Assembly (NCBI GenBank): GCA_001784805.1
Contig: MFSE01000008.1
Span: 1 to 51,675, forward strand
Direction of reading: 5' to 3'
From: Candidatus Moranbacteria bacterium RIFOXYA12_FULL_35_19
GTDB lineage: Bacteria; Patescibacteriota; Minisyncoccia; Moranbacterales; UBA2206
DNA: 51,675 nucleotides
Under the pieces are notes generated by a model. The model saw nothing but the letters and a program-made list of their open reading frames with translations. It did not search any database and was not told the DNA's origin. Position 1 is the stretch's first letter, and every line of letters begins with the position of its first letter. A program made the position numbers and the translations under genes. Positions 10,026 through 26,614 of this stretch are shown in pieces.

Positions 10026-10192
10026 CTGAAGAATCTTATTTTTTCGGTTTACCTGCCTCGCCGTCAGGCGGGTAACTCGGATGTCGAATTTCTTGCCAAA
10101 ACTTTCGCCCCCGATCAACAGCTGATAAGCCAAAGTTTTGGAGAAATACGACATCCTCAAACAAAATAAACCTCAAAAATAAGATTCTTCAG
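10026..10192. repeat. Nested imperfect palindrome of about 167 bp
   Basis: The outer arms, CTGAAGAATCTTATTTTT (10026-10043) and its perfect complement at 10175-10192, enclose further matched segments: GGATGTCG with CGACATCC, and CCAAAACTTT with AAAGTTTTGG. A GC-rich mini-palindrome (10051-10073) sits in the left arm only. A T-rich run follows the right arm, so the transcript could form one long hairpin that also terminates the SpoIID-like gene. Confidence 0.75.
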
Positions 10193-21821: not shown

Positions 21822-21936
21822 TTATAAACTACTTTCCAATATTTCCCAATATCCGCCTTTGTCGGGACCGATTCTTTTGAGCAAGCCTTTTTTAAGCCAA
21901 AATTTTTGCCATTGACATATTTTCAATTTCTGGTAG
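21822..21936 (-). pseudogene. Relic A: winged-helix C-terminal tail
   Basis: On the minus strand about 36 codons read LLKRIGPDKGGYWEIL and a TAA stop (21822-21824) after WQKFWLKKG. This is the kind of tail found at the C-terminus of AlbA_2-type ATPases and Fic-like proteins (DNA-binding winged helix). No start or upstream domain exists, so it is a fragment. It is nearly identical to relic B and holds the promoter of RNA A on the opposite strand. Confidence 0.65.
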
Positions 21937-21939
21937 TAT
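21912..21939 (+). promoter_or_regulatory. Strong promoter of small RNA A
   Basis: TTGACA (21912-21917), 16 bases, TAGTAT (21934-21939) preceded by TGG (extended -10). The stretch from about 21841 to 21942 is almost base-identical to 24418-24518, where the same promoter precedes RNA B. Confidence 0.75.
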
Positions 21940-21945
21940 TATAAA

Positions 21946-22046
21946 TACTAAGACCTGTATTCCGAACTGTTGCCGGACGGTGGCGTGATTGGGATTTCTC
22001 AATCTAGGAACGTGGTCGAGAACAACCCCCTTTGGGGCTGTTTTTT
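21946..22046 (+). ncRNA. Structured small RNA A, convergent with DUF3800; candidate DUF3800-type RNA motif
   Basis: About 100 nt between a strong promoter and a terminator, without an ORF of note. A closing stem pairs GACC (21952-21955) with GGTC (22014-22017) and TTCC (21960-21963) with GGAA (22007-22010). Inside are two hairpins: GCC/GGC with a 7-base loop (21972-21984) and GATTGGG/CTCAATC with loop ATTT (21987-22004). The terminator ends at the stop codon of the DUF3800 gene. Comparative work has described several 'DUF3800' RNA motifs beside such genes; membership here is inference from position and structure and was not tested. Confidence 0.65.
22021..22046 (+). terminator. Terminator of RNA A
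   Basis: AACAACCCC and GGGGCTGTT pair with one mismatch around CTTT and are followed by six T. It lies two bases from the DUF3800 stop codon on the other strand. Confidence 0.8.
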
Positions 22047-22047
22047 A

Positions 22048-22704
22048 TTAATGAAAATTCCACTCATCTTCAATGCGCTTTTTGATAATATTTTTATAAA
22101 TACCCGCATCATTTTTATCCTTTTGGTATGATCTATAAATTGATCCTGCCACCATATCAGCCATCTGAATCAAGACATCATTTTTTGAATCAATAAGTTT
22201 GCAATTTTTCAAAATTTTCTTTTCATTATTATTCAGCTCTTTTCTTAAATAAGTCGTAAAACTTTTTCTAAAAATCCTATCTCCACTTCCGTCTATTCGT
22301 ATTTTTGCATCTAAAATAGTGTTTTCACTATATTTCAGCATCGTCTTTATTATGTACCCATAAAAAGAATTCTTATCTGTTCTAAGATGCTTGCTGTATA
22401 TATTTTTTTTATCAACAACTAAACATCTTACACGAAATTTAAATTCAGATATTTTCTCAAGAAATTTTTTTCGAACATTTTTGTTAGACTTGTGAAATTT
22501 AAATTCCACATCATCTCGCCTGAAAAGTTCTCGTCGTAACTCTTTTATAGCCACAGCCGTCCTTTCCACCTCCAAATTATCATCAAAAATTATAGCGCTT
22601 ATAATAAAAAATTCGCTTGATCCCTTACTAAGCTTAAATCCCGCATCACCAGAGTCATCTATAAAAACCAATGTATTATTATCTTTTTGTTTTCCTTTAT
22701 TCAT
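22048..22704 (-). CDS. DUF3800 domain protein
   Basis: 218 residues. The start carries VFIDDSGDAGF (residues 13-23), the first acidic motif of DUF3800, and the end carries DVLIQMADMVAGSIYRSY, the second motif with conserved Asp and QxAD. The family is thought to have an RNase H-like fold with an acidic active site and is frequent in phage- and defence-associated regions; its activity is not established. The gene has a close promoter whose leader is nearly the same as that of the 136-aa gene (24578-24988), and a structured RNA is transcribed toward its 3' end. Confidence 0.88.
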   Translation of the reverse strand: MNKGKQKDNNTLVFIDDSGDAGFKLSKGSSEFFIISAIIFDDNLEVERTAVAIKELRRELFRRDDVEFKFHKSNKNVRKKFLEKISEFKFRVRCLVVDKKNIYSKHLRTDKNSFYGYIIKTMLKYSENTILDAKIRIDGSGDRIFRKSFTTYLRKELNNNEKKILKNCKLIDSKNDVLIQMADMVAGSIYRSYQKDKNDAGIYKNIIKKRIEDEWNFH

Positions 22705-22785
22705 TTTTTATTTTATACCATTTCAACGATTGAAATTATTTTTTGTTTCAAAACTTCAAATCACAAACTAATTATAATCTACTTA
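22705..22785 (-). repeat. Conserved leader of DUF3800 gene, repeated at 25003-25055
   Basis: TTTTATACCATTTC-A-ACGATTG and the following GTTTCAAAA-TTCAAA recur with few changes upstream of the 136-aa gene, and the distal half recurs at 24362-24400. On the minus strand it gives the -10 TATAAA (22712-22717), seven bases from the ATG at 22704. It passes without a break into relic C. Confidence 0.7.
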
Positions 22786-22882
22786 TGAATTATTTCCCAA
22801 TATCCGCCTTTGCCGGGACCGACTCGTTTAAGCTTGCCCTCTTTTTTCAATCTAGCTATATCTCTTTTGACTGTTTTTCCAT
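22779..22882 (-). pseudogene. Relic C: winged-helix C-terminal tail with RBS and one-base frameshift
   Basis: The minus-strand frame reads KTVKRDIARLKKEGKL and then RVGPGKGGYWEIIHK before TAG (22779-22781). Just upstream is AGGAGG (22890-22895) seven bases from an ATG (22880-22882), but that ATG reads MEKQSKEI and stops. Adding one A in the A-run after MEK would give a 34-residue ORF ending in the winged-helix tail. Either this is a decayed fragment or the indel is real in this strain only. Confidence 0.55.
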
Positions 22883-22964: not shown

Positions 22965-23330
22965 CTAGCAATTTTTGCAAGTTACCAAAGAATTTATGTC
23001 CGCTTTTTCCGGTTCAAATTTTACATCTCCTTTTTTTGGTAAAGCTCTGTTAGCGGCGACTATTCTAAGCATTTTTTCTATATCCTCATTAGCGTTAACA
23101 AATGCGATTTCTTTTTTATTTTTAGTTTTCCTTGAAAAATCCTCCTTCATCACTAAAAGCGCGTGTGCGGCCGAACGAGAAACAAATTCCACCTTTTGAA
23201 AATCTAAATCAACCAAATTATACTTGGATGCAGAAATAACCTTTTCTAACGAATCAATCAGATCTCTCGAGCCGATAATTGGAGCAATTTCCCTAAACAA
23301 ATTTATTGTGGTTTTTTTGATATTTTCCAT
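22965..23330 (-). CDS. STAS-like protein (DUF4325 type)
   Basis: 121 residues from ATG 23330 (MENIKKTT); a GTG at 23345 is the longer alternative. The signature is REIAPIIGSRD near the N-terminus and then DLDFQKVEFVSRSAAHALL at about 45-63. The Ser-Arg-Ser lies where anti-anti-sigma STAS proteins carry the phosphorylated serine (inference). The C-terminus ends CKNC, a possible metal or disulfide pair. Its neighbour upstream is a GHKL ATPase, a pair resembling the RsbV/RsbW partner-switch arrangement, but no sigma factor is nearby. A palindrome overlaps the promoter in front of it. Confidence 0.75.
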   Translation of the reverse strand: MENIKKTTINLFREIAPIIGSRDLIDSLEKVISASKYNLVDLDFQKVEFVSRSAAHALLVMKEDFSRKTKNKKEIAFVNANEDIEKMLRIVAANRALPKKGDVKFEPEKADINSLVTCKNC

Positions 23331-23348
23331 ATATTTTTTCAACACTTC

Positions 23349-23377
23349 ACTATACTATAGTATAATTGAAAAGTCAA
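23349..23377 (-). promoter_or_regulatory. Internal promoter of the STAS-like gene with 14-base palindrome
   Basis: On the minus strand TTGACT (23372-23377), 17 bases, TATAGT (23349-23354). The perfect palindrome TATACTATAGTATA (23351-23364) overlaps the -10. This suggests that the STAS-like gene can be expressed apart from the ATPase and may be repressed. Confidence 0.55.
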
Positions 23378-23378
23378 T

Positions 23379-24233
23379 TTATTCCAAATATCCATTTTTA
23401 TAAATATCCACAGATTCGGTAGGTCTTGGTATTCTGTAAGCAATAATAACACCTTGCCAATAAAAACATGGGAGATTAAACAATTTTTCACTTTTTTTAG
23501 AAGAAACAAGAGCAGCCGAACCAGATAGAAAAATAAATTCTCCATTCATAGCATTGCACACAACGCTTTTTGAAGTTCTCACGCCATATCCCCTCTCTTT
23601 ATTTAACTTAGTAGAGTTTCCCTTCATTGAACGCAAAATAGCTTCACTGTCTGTAAGATTTAAACCATTCTCTTTTTTGTAAGTTTCAGCAAGCCCCCTT
23701 CCGCAATCAACAATACAAATATCCAAATAGTCTTTCTTGGGATAGAATTGTCCGAACAAATATCCTTCGTTTTGCGTGCTATGTTCAAATATATTGGTCA
23801 CTAATTCACTAATTGGATAAAGAATGGCGCTACTTGTGCCAGGGACAGAACCAATGACCTTTAAGATTAAATTGGAAAAAAGAGATTCTAATCGCTCCCT
23901 ATCCGAATTTTTTTCTTTCTTAAGAATACTAATTGGAATATAATTCTTTTTTAATTGAACTTCTTTCTGAAAAGAAAGCACCGAATCAATACCTTTGGGA
24001 AATTTTACCGCGTCTAAATATGATTTGACTGATCCATTCGCACTATATGAACTTTTTGTAGAATTTATATGCGCGCTTAACGGTAAAATCAAAAGAGGAT
24101 AAGCCCAATCAATTTTTGATAAATTGAAATTAAAATTTTCGTTTTTGCTATGATTTCTTAGTGCCAAATACAAAACCAATAATTGCCCAGACAAGAAAAT
24201 ATTTTTTGGTTTTAAAACGATAACTTCTTTCAT
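23379..24233 (-). CDS. GHKL (histidine-kinase-like) ATPase
   Basis: 284 residues. The ATP-binding fold occupies the C-terminal half: the N-box is ELVTNIFEHS (143-152), G1 is CIVDCGRGL (173-181) and G2 is RGYGVRTSK (214-222). The first 110 residues match no domain I know. No histidine phospho-acceptor domain or membrane segment is present, so it is not a classical sensor kinase; with the STAS-like gene next to it, it could be the kinase half of a partner switch. The pair is in an accessory island with DUF3800 and AbiE genes, so a defence or stress role is possible. Confidence 0.78.
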   Translation of the reverse strand: MKEVIVLKPKNIFLSGQLLVLYLALRNHSKNENFNFNLSKIDWAYPLLILPLSAHINSTKSSYSANGSVKSYLDAVKFPKGIDSVLSFQKEVQLKKNYIPISILKKEKNSDRERLESLFSNLILKVIGSVPGTSSAILYPISELVTNIFEHSTQNEGYLFGQFYPKKDYLDICIVDCGRGLAETYKKENGLNLTDSEAILRSMKGNSTKLNKERGYGVRTSKSVVCNAMNGEFIFLSGSAALVSSKKSEKLFNLPCFYWQGVIIAYRIPRPTESVDIYKNGYLE

Positions 24234-24403
24234 TTTTTTATATTTATTATTTACAACTCAATTATAACACTTTCTTATCAAAGCCCAGCTTAAACTCCAC
24301 GATAAATGACCTAAAAATTTTCTCATCTCCTCCCCCATCTCATGTCCAAAAATCCGAAGATTGATTTTTGTTTCCAAATTTCAAATCACAAACTAATCAT
24401 AAT

Positions 24404-24518
24404 CTACTTTTGAATTATTTCCCAATATCCGCCTTTGTCGGGACTAATTCTTTTGAGTAAGCCTTTTTTTAAGCCAAAATTTTTGCCATTGACATATTTT
24501 CAATTTCTGGTAGTATTA
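24404..24518 (-). pseudogene. Relic B: winged-helix C-terminal tail, frameshifted
   Basis: The minus-strand frame reads KRISPDKGGYWEIIQK and a TAG stop. Compared with relic A, one extra base in the A-run breaks the frame between LKKG-like and LLKR-like segments. It lies upstream of the ATPase gene and downstream of the 136-aa gene, and it contains the promoter of RNA B on the plus strand. The region 24234-24403 between it and the ATPase has no gene; it holds a -10 like ATTATA (24261-24266) and a partial copy of the leader repeat. Confidence 0.6.
24489..24516 (+). promoter_or_regulatory. Strong promoter of small RNA B
   Basis: TTGACA (24489-24494), 16 bases, TAGTAT (24511-24516) after TGG. 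It is the second copy of the RNA A promoter, identical in the boxes and spacer. Confidence 0.75.
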
Positions 24519-24520
24519 CA

Positions 24521-24577
24521 TTACATAAGAATCCCGGCCAGAAGGTAACACTTCACATCGTGGCGGGGGTTTTTATT
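24521..24577 (+). ncRNA. Short structured RNA B, convergent with the 136-aa gene
   Basis: A short transcript of about 55 nt. CCC-G-GCCA (24533-24540) pairs with TGGC-G-GGG (24561-24568), with one G-G mismatch. Within lies GAAG/CTTC (24541-24554) with loop GTAACA. The outer stem is followed by a T-run, so the RNA is itself a terminator-like structure ending at the stop codon of the gene on the other strand. It shares the promoter with RNA A but no body sequence. Confidence 0.55.
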
Positions 24578-24988
24578 TTATCCCGGCGGAAAACATGACA
24601 TCAGATATTTTCTCTTTCTTTTTTTGTCTTCTTTTATTTGCACATAAAACAATTCTTTCTCCATAGTTAGACCAGCGAATCTATATAAAATTTCTTTTTT
24701 CTCAAACAATTCAGTTTTTTCAATTGGTCCAGTTTTTGAATATTTTATCAACTCACAAGTAGCTTTAAAATATTTTAATCTTTGCATTCTATCCTTAACT
24801 GATTTTTGAAAAAGATGCTCGCGAAAATAATCTAGGAATATTTTCTCTTTTTTAAAATAGGCAGATCTTATATATGGTCGTCTTTTTGTTTTCTTCTTAA
24901 TTTCATCAAAGACAGCCATCGCTCCATGCATAACCTCGCCATAACTTGTTCCAGAAATTTTTTTTGATTTTGTTTGGTATGGAATCAT
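24578..24988 (-). CDS. Conserved 136-aa accessory protein, unknown function
   Basis: 136 residues, basic. Features are RRPYIRSAYFKKEKIFLDYFREHLFQK, a helical RMQRLKYFKATCELI, and a C-terminal EILYRFAGLTMEKELFYVQIKED followed by RKYLMSCFPPG. The end resembles small nuclease-like toxins of the RelE/BECR type in general shape, but I cannot name a family. Similar proteins seem to be common in CPR genomes (recollection, not tested). Its promoter/leader matches that of DUF3800, and a small RNA is transcribed toward its 3' end, so the two genes may belong to one kind of module. Confidence 0.6.
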   Translation of the reverse strand: MIPYQTKSKKISGTSYGEVMHGAMAVFDEIKKKTKRRPYIRSAYFKKEKIFLDYFREHLFQKSVKDRMQRLKYFKATCELIKYSKTGPIEKTELFEKKEILYRFAGLTMEKELFYVQIKEDKKRKRKYLMSCFPPG

Positions 24989-25130: not shown

Positions 25131-25961
25131 TCAATGCAACTTTTTTATTTCTTCTTTTAGAATATCCTTTATATTTTTTCCGAGATTTTTGACAAATTCC
25201 CTGTCGGCAATGAAATTTTCCAGATCAAGCACAACGCTTCGACTGTCAATCTTGTCTATAATAGCTGAAAGTTTTTTTCTTAATTCTTCCATATTTTCAA
25301 CTTCTTTCACACAAGCCAAATTAAGATTAACTTCTTTTTGCAAATACCACATTAGATCAAAATAGTCCCGCCCCTTGACACTAATCAAAACATCGCCTTT
25401 CTTATTGATTTTTTCCCATTTTCGATGAAGTATTGCCCTTATTTTCGTTGCCATAAGCGTTGACAAATCAAAAGTTTTGATTAGCATTGATAGGTTAAAT
25501 TTGAAAAGTGGTCTGATTTCCGTTTTATGTTTTTTGCAAAAATCCGATCCGTCAAAAATTTCCACTTTCAAATATAACCAGTCCGACTGCGAATCATTAG
25601 CTATGCCAAGCTGTCCGAGAATTGGAAATTTCAAGTATATTCTAAATTTTTGTATTTTTGTTGCTACCGACAAACCAATCTCTTTTTCAAAATACATCTT
25701 CAGACTTTCGGCTAAATTATCAATTTTTATCTGCCCGCTAAGATCAACGAAATCCAAATCTTCTGAAAGACGAGGCAAGCTATAACACTGCGAAAGGACT
25801 GATCCGCCATAAAAAACTAAGTTGCCATATTTCTTGTCGGAATAGATAAAATTAAGTGCGAATACCTGCAAATAATTTTTCAGTAGATTTAATTTATATG
25901 AATCTGTTTTGTCAGAATTCTCTTTGATAATATTTTCTAATTCTAAAATTATTTTTTTCAT
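25131..25961 (-). CDS. AbiEii/AbiGii-family nucleotidyltransferase toxin
   Basis: 276 residues. The nucleotidyltransferase core begins with VFYGGSVLSQCYSLPRLSEDLDFVDL (about 48-73): the GGS loop and the DxD-like EDLDF metal site. The second half has KIRAILHRKWEK and VKGRDYFDLMWYL, the conserved RDxxDL-type motif of this family. Type IV AbiE toxins transfer nucleotides, and related MenT toxins modify tRNA; the target here is unknown. It is coupled to the upstream antitoxin-like gene by ATGA overlap (25958-25961), the classical order. Confidence 0.9.
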   Translation of the reverse strand: MKKIILELENIIKENSDKTDSYKLNLLKNYLQVFALNFIYSDKKYGNLVFYGGSVLSQCYSLPRLSEDLDFVDLSGQIKIDNLAESLKMYFEKEIGLSVATKIQKFRIYLKFPILGQLGIANDSQSDWLYLKVEIFDGSDFCKKHKTEIRPLFKFNLSMLIKTFDLSTLMATKIRAILHRKWEKINKKGDVLISVKGRDYFDLMWYLQKEVNLNLACVKEVENMEELRKKLSAIIDKIDSRSVVLDLENFIADREFVKNLGKNIKDILKEEIKKLH

Positions 25962-26614
25962 AGATCTTTTTTTGTTAGATAATTGAAAATTTTCCTCATT
26001 TTTTTTGATTTTTCCAAATAAACATATTCTTCCAATTCTTTGAAATCTTTTTTTGCAAAACTATCCAGATTCAATCTCAACTCATCTATTTGTTCCGCAG
26101 AGAACAAAATATTTTTTCGAAAATATAAAAAATCGAACAAAGCTTTGGCGCAAGTAGCCTCAGCAATCAAAAAATCACCACTTTTGTTAATTTCAAAGCC
26201 AGTGAATAATTCTTCTTTGATATTATAATATTTAAAAATACCCAGATGATTAGAAAATTTATTAGTCTTTTTTTTACTGACTAGCGTATAAGAATTGACT
26301 GATTCAGACATTACTCCATATTTTTCAAGGACATATTCCAAGCTTAGATAACTAGGCTCATATATTATATTTCCCACAAATTCTACATACCTGCTGATGC
26401 TATTTTTTCTGTTTATATTATCTAAAAAATTTTTACTCACATACATTCCTCTTTTTAGAGACTTCACTGTTCCATTTTTGGAAAAACGGTACAGCAAAAC
26501 TTTCAGATAATTTTTATCCTTTTCTATCGGCATCAAATCGTCAATGGTAAAATAAGGAAGTTTCTCAATAGCTTCCCTGATTTTGGATGACTTGTTTTTT
26601 CTAACTTCACTCAT
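25958..26614 (-). CDS. AbiEi-family antitoxin / transcriptional regulator
   Basis: 218 residues. An N-terminal winged helix (FTIDDLMPIEKDKNYLKVLLYRFSKNG, then LKRGMYVS, about 25-65) is followed by the AbiEi body with YEPSYLSLEYVLEKYGVMSE and a C-terminal AEATCAKALFDFLYFRK. In known AbiE systems this protein neutralises AbiEii and represses its own operon by binding inverted repeats. Here a palindrome covers the -10 of the operon promoter, which fits that role. Confidence 0.88.
   Translation of the reverse strand: MSEVRKNKSSKIREAIEKLPYFTIDDLMPIEKDKNYLKVLLYRFSKNGTVKSLKRGMYVSKNFLDNINRKNSISRYVEFVGNIIYEPSYLSLEYVLEKYGVMSESVNSYTLVSKKKTNKFSNHLGIFKYYNIKEELFTGFEINKSGDFLIAEATCAKALFDFLYFRKNILFSAEQIDELRLNLDSFAKKDFKELEEYVYLEKSKKMRKIFNYLTKKDL

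Follow-up and report, generated by a model that had tools for sequence, protein, structure and literature searches.

A DUF3800-IX RNA convergent with a predicted RNase HII-like nuclease gene: a candidate RNA-antitoxin module whose RNA also stands alone in viral records

The pair described here joins a small structured RNA, a member of a known family whose function is unexplained, tail to tail with the gene of a predicted RNase HII-like nuclease. It lies in a 51,675-nucleotide stretch (the window) of a Candidatus Moranbacteria genome. Sequence comparison and structure prediction define the RNA family, its promoter, the layout of the pair, the link to a single protein clade, the fold of the partner and the copies of the RNA that occur without the gene. 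We see about an even chance that such pairs are modules of an RNA antitoxin and a nuclease, similar in action to type III toxin-antitoxin systems but convergent in layout, and that the solitary RNAs of viruses act as decoys. The parts, their order and the one-way loss of the gene appear consistent with a nuclease kept in check by an RNA antitoxin.

The promoter of the RNA is of sigma-70 type (21912-21939, plus strand; TTGACA, a 16-nt spacer and TAGTAT, with TG preceding the -10 box) and scores 10/12, in agreement with the near-consensus promoter of the original prediction. A lone promoter match is weak evidence in such AT-rich DNA, a 3-kb stretch of which holds 28 promoter-like sites (17.7 ± 4.5 in shuffles); this one is significant because it is conserved at homologous loci. 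Positions 21952-22021 (plus strand) match the DUF3800-IX family, Rfam RF02968, over the entire model (1-67 of 67) at 45.5 bits, above the curated cut-off of 36.8, and our own model R1, of which the window sequence itself is part, gives 71.3 bits. The RNA folds as a three-way junction, with P1 closing the two inner hairpins P2 and P3, at -33.6 kcal/mol; shuffled sequences average -26.4 ± 3.0 kcal/mol (z -2.4), 3 of 200 fold equally well, and the fold taken alone is thus moderately unusual. The complementary segments GACC/GGTC and GATTG/CAATC correspond to P1 and P3 of the Rfam consensus. The window RNA shares with RF02968 its full model length, the three-way junction, the conserved core and the adjacent DUF3800 gene; nothing essential differs, P3 and much of P1 being changed in a compensated way, and an extra terminator hairpin stands 3’ of the family domain. 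This hairpin and its T-run (22018-22045, plus strand) were recognized from fold and sequence, a simple terminator pattern scan not having listed them, and the T-run stops one or two bases short of the DUF3800 stop codon (22048-22050, minus strand). Besides DUF3800 itself, the locus offers no convincing ORF, the TTG/ATG frames being of 20-53 aa at most. A closed multi-helix fold with two internal hairpins, a terminator abutting the stop codon and the lack of an ORF had all been anticipated from the sequence, and all three hold. The same prediction had left open whether the RNA was a member of the known DUF3800 motifs or a new class: it belongs to class IX, and its fit to RF02968 rules out a new class. 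The genome, of 988,700 bases, contains one IX RNA and one DUF3800 gene.

We collected related RNAs with the Rfam family from 379 genomes of the phylum (21 hits in 17 genomes) and with core-pattern searches of GTDB genomes (at least 116 stretches) and IMG/VR (31 stretches), both re-scored with R1. Two weak R1 matches beside DUF3800 genes, L120 (23.4 bits) and L117 (18.3 bits), were left out of the counts. The helices are supported by compensatory change. In the phylum sample, 20 RNAs (19 distinct) show two-sided changes at 17 of 23 pairs, and 87.0% of cells pair, compared with 35.5-45.8% when the partner strand is slid. Among the matches listed, 98 distinct rows that span many phyla as well as viruses show two-sided changes at 19 of 23 pairs (15.3 ± 0.8 in shuffles) and pair in 90.4% of cells (28.7-53.1% when slid), in an alignment that was fitted to the model and so leans towards it. 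The stems are kept wherever a gene of the IX clade is kept in the sample examined. The original prediction had looked to Rfam covariance models and to covarying stems for support, and both supply it. No variable unpaired segment is seen in the alignment, which rules out a guide RNA.

A promoter likewise recurs ahead of the RNA, defined here as a site of at least 9/12 whose -10 box lies 3-16 nt from the RNA start. Such a site precedes 10 of 12 RNAs at loci of the phylum sample that have the gene (0.7 expected), 33 of 57 at other genome loci among the matches listed (1.5 expected) and 3 of 3 at viral loci holding the gene; on the 3’ side of the RNA, as a control, it occurs at 2 of 97 among the matches listed (1.6 expected). 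The layout of the pair is strict. Among the matches listed, a DUF3800 ORF lies within 300 nt of the RNA 3’ end for 76 of 111 IX hits (71 distinct proteins), all 76 genes are convergent with the RNA and none is on the same strand, the stop codon lies a median of 3 nt from the RNA end, and 33 of the 111 hits have no DUF3800 ORF in the locus. In the window pair the gene stands about 26 nt from the RNA domain, and in L035 and L036 the RNAs are situated on the other side of a complete pair. Culturable bacteria that have RNA and gene together include Sphingobium fuliginis DSM 18781 (L200) and Chelativorans sp. J32 (L239).

The convergent layout extends beyond class IX. A strong promoter on the opposite strand, at most 200 nt past the stop codon, faces 42 of the 93 non-IX DUF3800 genes in the phylum sample, where shuffles predict 3.5; same-strand promoters number 8, and among other genes of these loci 12 of 148 are faced in this way. 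Eight DUF3800-V RNAs (RF02964) were found in 40 non-IX loci scanned, and all eight converge with their DUF3800 gene as the IX RNAs do; they differ from IX in their RNA model and in partner proteins that fall outside the IX clade. In L038, around 1290-1435, the nearest DUF3800 outside that clade is opposed by a promoter and a large folded RNA; this RNA scores below every Rfam cut-off and is probably an undescribed DUF3800 RNA class.

The gene that converges with the window RNA (22048-22704, minus strand) encodes 218 aa and matches PF12686 at 62.8 bits (7.7e-17). It also matches the PADLOC candidate defence protein PDC-M04A at 46.6 bits (E 6.5e-13), the protein model alone having been compared; the name PDC-M04 was not found in the literature searched. 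In a tree of 156 DUF3800 proteins, the 60 tips linked to IX RNAs all fall in one clade with support 0.96 and no unlinked gene inside. Of the 14 clade genes in the phylum sample the tree includes 13, the G140 gene being cut by a contig end; the remaining IX tips were found through their RNA, and therefore cannot test the occurrence of the gene without it. RNA and protein distances are correlated (Mantel r 0.395, 0 of 2000 permutations, n = 57, among the matches listed). Proteins that end in WP are paired with RNAs shorter than 67 nt in 9 of 10 cases, and the rest in 1 of 47, again among the matches listed. The distance correlation, which shared descent alone can yield, shows RNA and protein travelling as a unit. 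That the protein might act on the RNA or together with it, as suggested when the locus was first read, is strengthened by this clade specificity and the matching of subtypes, short of proof.

An AlphaFold2 model of the protein (mean pLDDT 94.9) resembles RNase HII, with a Foldseek match to 1uax_A at E 1.3e-5 and, in VIA, Z 12.9 and an rmsd of 2.7 over 158 aligned residues; a sequence look-up among solved structures returned no usable match. Across 49 sequences, D16 and D183 are invariant and D138 is kept in at least 90%. The IX-linked DUF3800 proteins are thus predicted to be RNase HII-like nucleases, similar to RNase HII in modeled fold and conserved acidic residues and different from it in gene neighbourhood and RNA partner. 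An RNase H-type fold for DUF3800 has already been stated in excerpts of PMC10910872 and PMC12669027.

The RNA is found without the gene, and in the phylum sample the converse is not seen. All 14 clade genes of that sample have the RNA and 0 of 14 stand without it, while 5 of the 19 RNAs that no contig end truncates lack the gene at their 3’ end, a one-way loss that rests on a small sample of 14 genes. One-way loss is expected of an antidote that outlives its poison; an RNA that merely serves the enzyme would account for it less readily. At L275, L285, L278, L192, L178 and the viral L300 group, inspection by eye found the gene's final 5 to 12 codons remaining next to the RNA, and some solitary RNAs are, to judge from these codons, fresh remains of complete pairs. 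The promoter is kept at 10 of 13 non-viral loci of the solitary set, which includes L035 and L036 (0.6 expected, among the matches listed). There was one plasmid match, in Acetobacter persici.

Solitary RNAs are also carried by viruses. We examined 26 IMG/VR records that contain an IX RNA, fragments of which none is at least 90% complete. The pair is present in 5, whole or in part, and PF12686 is absent throughout the other 21. Once 7 near-copies are dropped, the 21 gene-less records represent 14 distinct lineages. Their RNAs pair in 92.9% of cells, with two-sided change at 15 of 23 pairs; the core bases outside the search pattern are unchanged in all 14, and all 11 loci submitted (11 of the 14 lineages) pass the Rfam cut-off. 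A recognizable sigma-70 promoter precedes 1 of the 14, and we assume expression by read-through from a phage operon. With one or two proteins per lineage tested, 7 of the 14 lineages proved to have a terminase gene within about 3 kb of the RNA, and in 6 of these 7 the gene and the RNA share a strand. The RNA of the L300 group was probably taken from a complete pair, because the last gene codons (KIDDVWEFR) remain beside it. Named phages do not confirm the viral solitary RNAs, since a blastn search of INPHARED with two viral RNAs found no IX RNA and a tblastn search of INPHARED and PLSDB with the DUF3800 protein (1e-10) found no match. For the flanks of three viral loci, no relative was found for two, and the third gave a partial terminase match to Pseudanabaena phage Pam5 and nothing more. 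Near the solitary viral RNAs of L322 and L319, tRNA genes lie at 10048-10123 and 1369-1526, respectively.

The promoter block of the IX RNA is duplicated in the window. Copy 1 (21826-21953, plus strand) and copy 2 (24401-24530, plus strand), 2.6 kb apart, are identical over the last 54 nt ahead of the RNA start, and their likeness ends about where transcription would begin. Copy 2 stands over a second convergent RNA (24525-24577, plus strand), an extended hairpin with a fold z of -6.0, which our model R2 scores at 37.7 bits with the window sequence itself part of the model. Rfam gave no hit to this RNA in the window, nor in 10 loci of its family up to E 1. The upstream part of the block is present a third time (86%) 5’ of the DUF3800 gene at 22740-22845 (plus strand). 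The module borders at 21840-21893, 22791-22844 and about 24420-24480 carry one common stretch, which on the minus strand reads by eye like the end of a helix-turn-helix gene (..GPDKGGYWEI). Long copies of it are confined to these 3.3 kb of the genome, and it looks like a recombination or duplication border.

The second RNA converges with a gene for a 136-aa protein (24578-24988, minus strand) that has no match in Pfam, NCBIfam or PADLOC and an insignificant one in PHROGs (0.029). Its family numbers 35 clear members in 29 of the 379 phylum genomes, with the weak matches of G349, G189 and G238 outside the count; IMG/VR yielded no relative. A hairpin lies directly 3’ of the stop codon in all 35, and a promoter of at least 9/12 is present at 32 of the 35 loci (3.0 expected). 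The hairpin alignment A5 covers 34 of the 35, L067 being omitted for its rearranged hairpin, and shows two-sided changes at 10 of 15 pairs, with 94.5% of cells paired compared with 45.5-52.1% when slid. L070 and L074, which belong to two genomes of the same genus, each have a TAG interrupting the 136-aa gene, at a different place in each, beside an intact hairpin RNA and promoter. A sequence look-up among solved structures found nothing useful for the 136-aa protein. Its predicted structure (pLDDT 94.8) had no Foldseek match at E 0.001, and in VIA the best rows were mostly RelE, HigB, BrnT and CdiA toxins at Z of only 5.1 to 3.9, a fold that weakly resembles RelE/HigB-type toxins. R2 matches occur in 41 of the 379 genomes; of the 30 loci listed, 22 adjoin a 136-aa gene, 1 adjoins a DUF3800 gene and 7 have neither as a neighbour. 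RNA types may have been exchanged between proteins, because R2-type hairpins of G138 (L096) and G323 (L092) are convergent with DUF3800 genes, two of them in tandem after one gene in G138.

We propose that the locus would serve as an RNA/nuclease addiction or defence module. The strong promoter would drive a short RNA of about 70-100 nt that is ended by its own terminator, where the DUF3800 gene ends too. Made steadily, this RNA would bind the DUF3800 protein and block the nuclease. Were host transcription to fail, for example during phage infection, the short-lived RNA would drop, and the freed nuclease would cut nucleic acid. Phages that carry the RNA alone would supply the antidote from their own operon. 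The 136-aa gene and its hairpin RNA, under the duplicated promoter copy, would form a second module with the same logic and another protein. Binding, inhibition, release on infection, cutting and decoy action are steps that we infer.

Type III systems (ToxIN, CptIN, TenpIN and the AbiF/RCd22 pair of C. difficile) likewise set a structured RNA beside a predicted nuclease gene. As defined in excerpts of PMC5086642 and PMC12373285, they form one operon with the RNA upstream and composed of tandem repeats. The type III RNA and toxin share a promoter, whereas here the two lie on opposite strands, converge and have separate promoters. The repeats of the type III antitoxin contrast with the single RNA copy in this genome, and the ToxN fold of its endoribonuclease toxin contrasts with an RNase HII-like predicted fold. 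Without the operon order and the repeats, the window pair falls outside the canonical type III systems, whose mode of action it may nevertheless share. The pseudo-ToxI of phage PhiTE, described in an excerpt of PMC5449768 as a phage RNA decoy against ToxN, offers a precedent for the viral solitary RNAs.

The strongest rival is a ribonucleoprotein effector, in which the RNA would be the scaffold or activator of a DUF3800 nuclease used in defence. A cofactor-type need for the RNA would produce clade specificity and matched subtypes equally well, and RNase H-fold nucleases with partner RNAs already exist. DUF3800 proteins moreover accompany some Cas12a2 and type VI-F loci, according to excerpts of PMC10910872 and PMC12669027. 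The part of an effector should decay along with its enzyme, however, and the solitary RNAs retain promoter, structure and core after the gene is lost; nor does the RNA have a variable unpaired stretch that could be used as a guide. We regard this explanation as rather unlikely. The solitary RNAs, in cells and in viruses, and the terminase genes near 7 of the 14 viral lineages are what would be expected if DUF3800 processed or degraded an RNA with a separate function, such as phage packaging or host take-over. That reading is distinctly improbable, as the bacterial RNA is mostly tied to one protein clade and no common second partner is seen.

The tail-to-tail overlap or abutment (median gap 3 nt among the matches listed) and the strong promoter facing the gene could also point to regulation in cis, by convergent transcription or by antisense pairing to the DUF3800 mRNA at its 3’ end, as in type I systems. 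Such regulation could do without a conserved junction core and without covarying helices, and leaves the intact RNAs of gene-less viral records unexplained; we consider it improbable. It is very improbable that these elements are attC-like DNA recombination sites of gene cassettes and not RNAs. The repeated blocks that flank the modules in the window, and the recurrence of hairpins at gene 3’ ends, would suit such sites; a promoter at fixed distance in most loci, U-rich ends, helices that keep G-U pairs and the single-copy state of both the IX and the R2 RNA in the genome speak against them.

The DUF3800 RNA families are listed in Rfam without an assigned function. That function now comes within reach of a few bench tests in E. 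coli, given strict convergence, a predicted RNase HII-like partner, loss in one direction and viral copies that lack the gene. What appears to be new is that the pairs converge without exception among the matches listed, that viruses carry copies lacking the gene, and that there is a second RNA/protein family, found by following the duplicated promoter. None of these was found in the literature searched, though the first description of the motifs lay outside it and parts may therefore be in print. If the RNA-antitoxin reading is true, the pairs would constitute a class of RNA antitoxins novel in both gene layout and toxin fold, together with a natural set of phage RNA antidotes. It is tempting to speculate further, with somewhat less than an even chance of being right, that they belong to a large unnamed class of convergent RNA-antitoxin modules. 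That class would combine DUF3800 and unrelated small nucleases, include the R2 RNA with the 136-aa family, swap promoter-RNA cassettes, and have many phages carrying the RNA alone as an antidote.

Genes for AbiEii and AbiEi, a type IV toxin-antitoxin system recognized by profile matches including PADLOC (25131-26614, minus strand), lie beside both pairs. The region looks like a toxin-antitoxin or defence island, because these genes adjoin the two RNA pairs. Between the pairs, at 22965-24233, are a STAS-domain-like ORF of 126 aa and an ATPase-like ORF of 284 aa that matches phrog_3364 and, weakly, DrmA.
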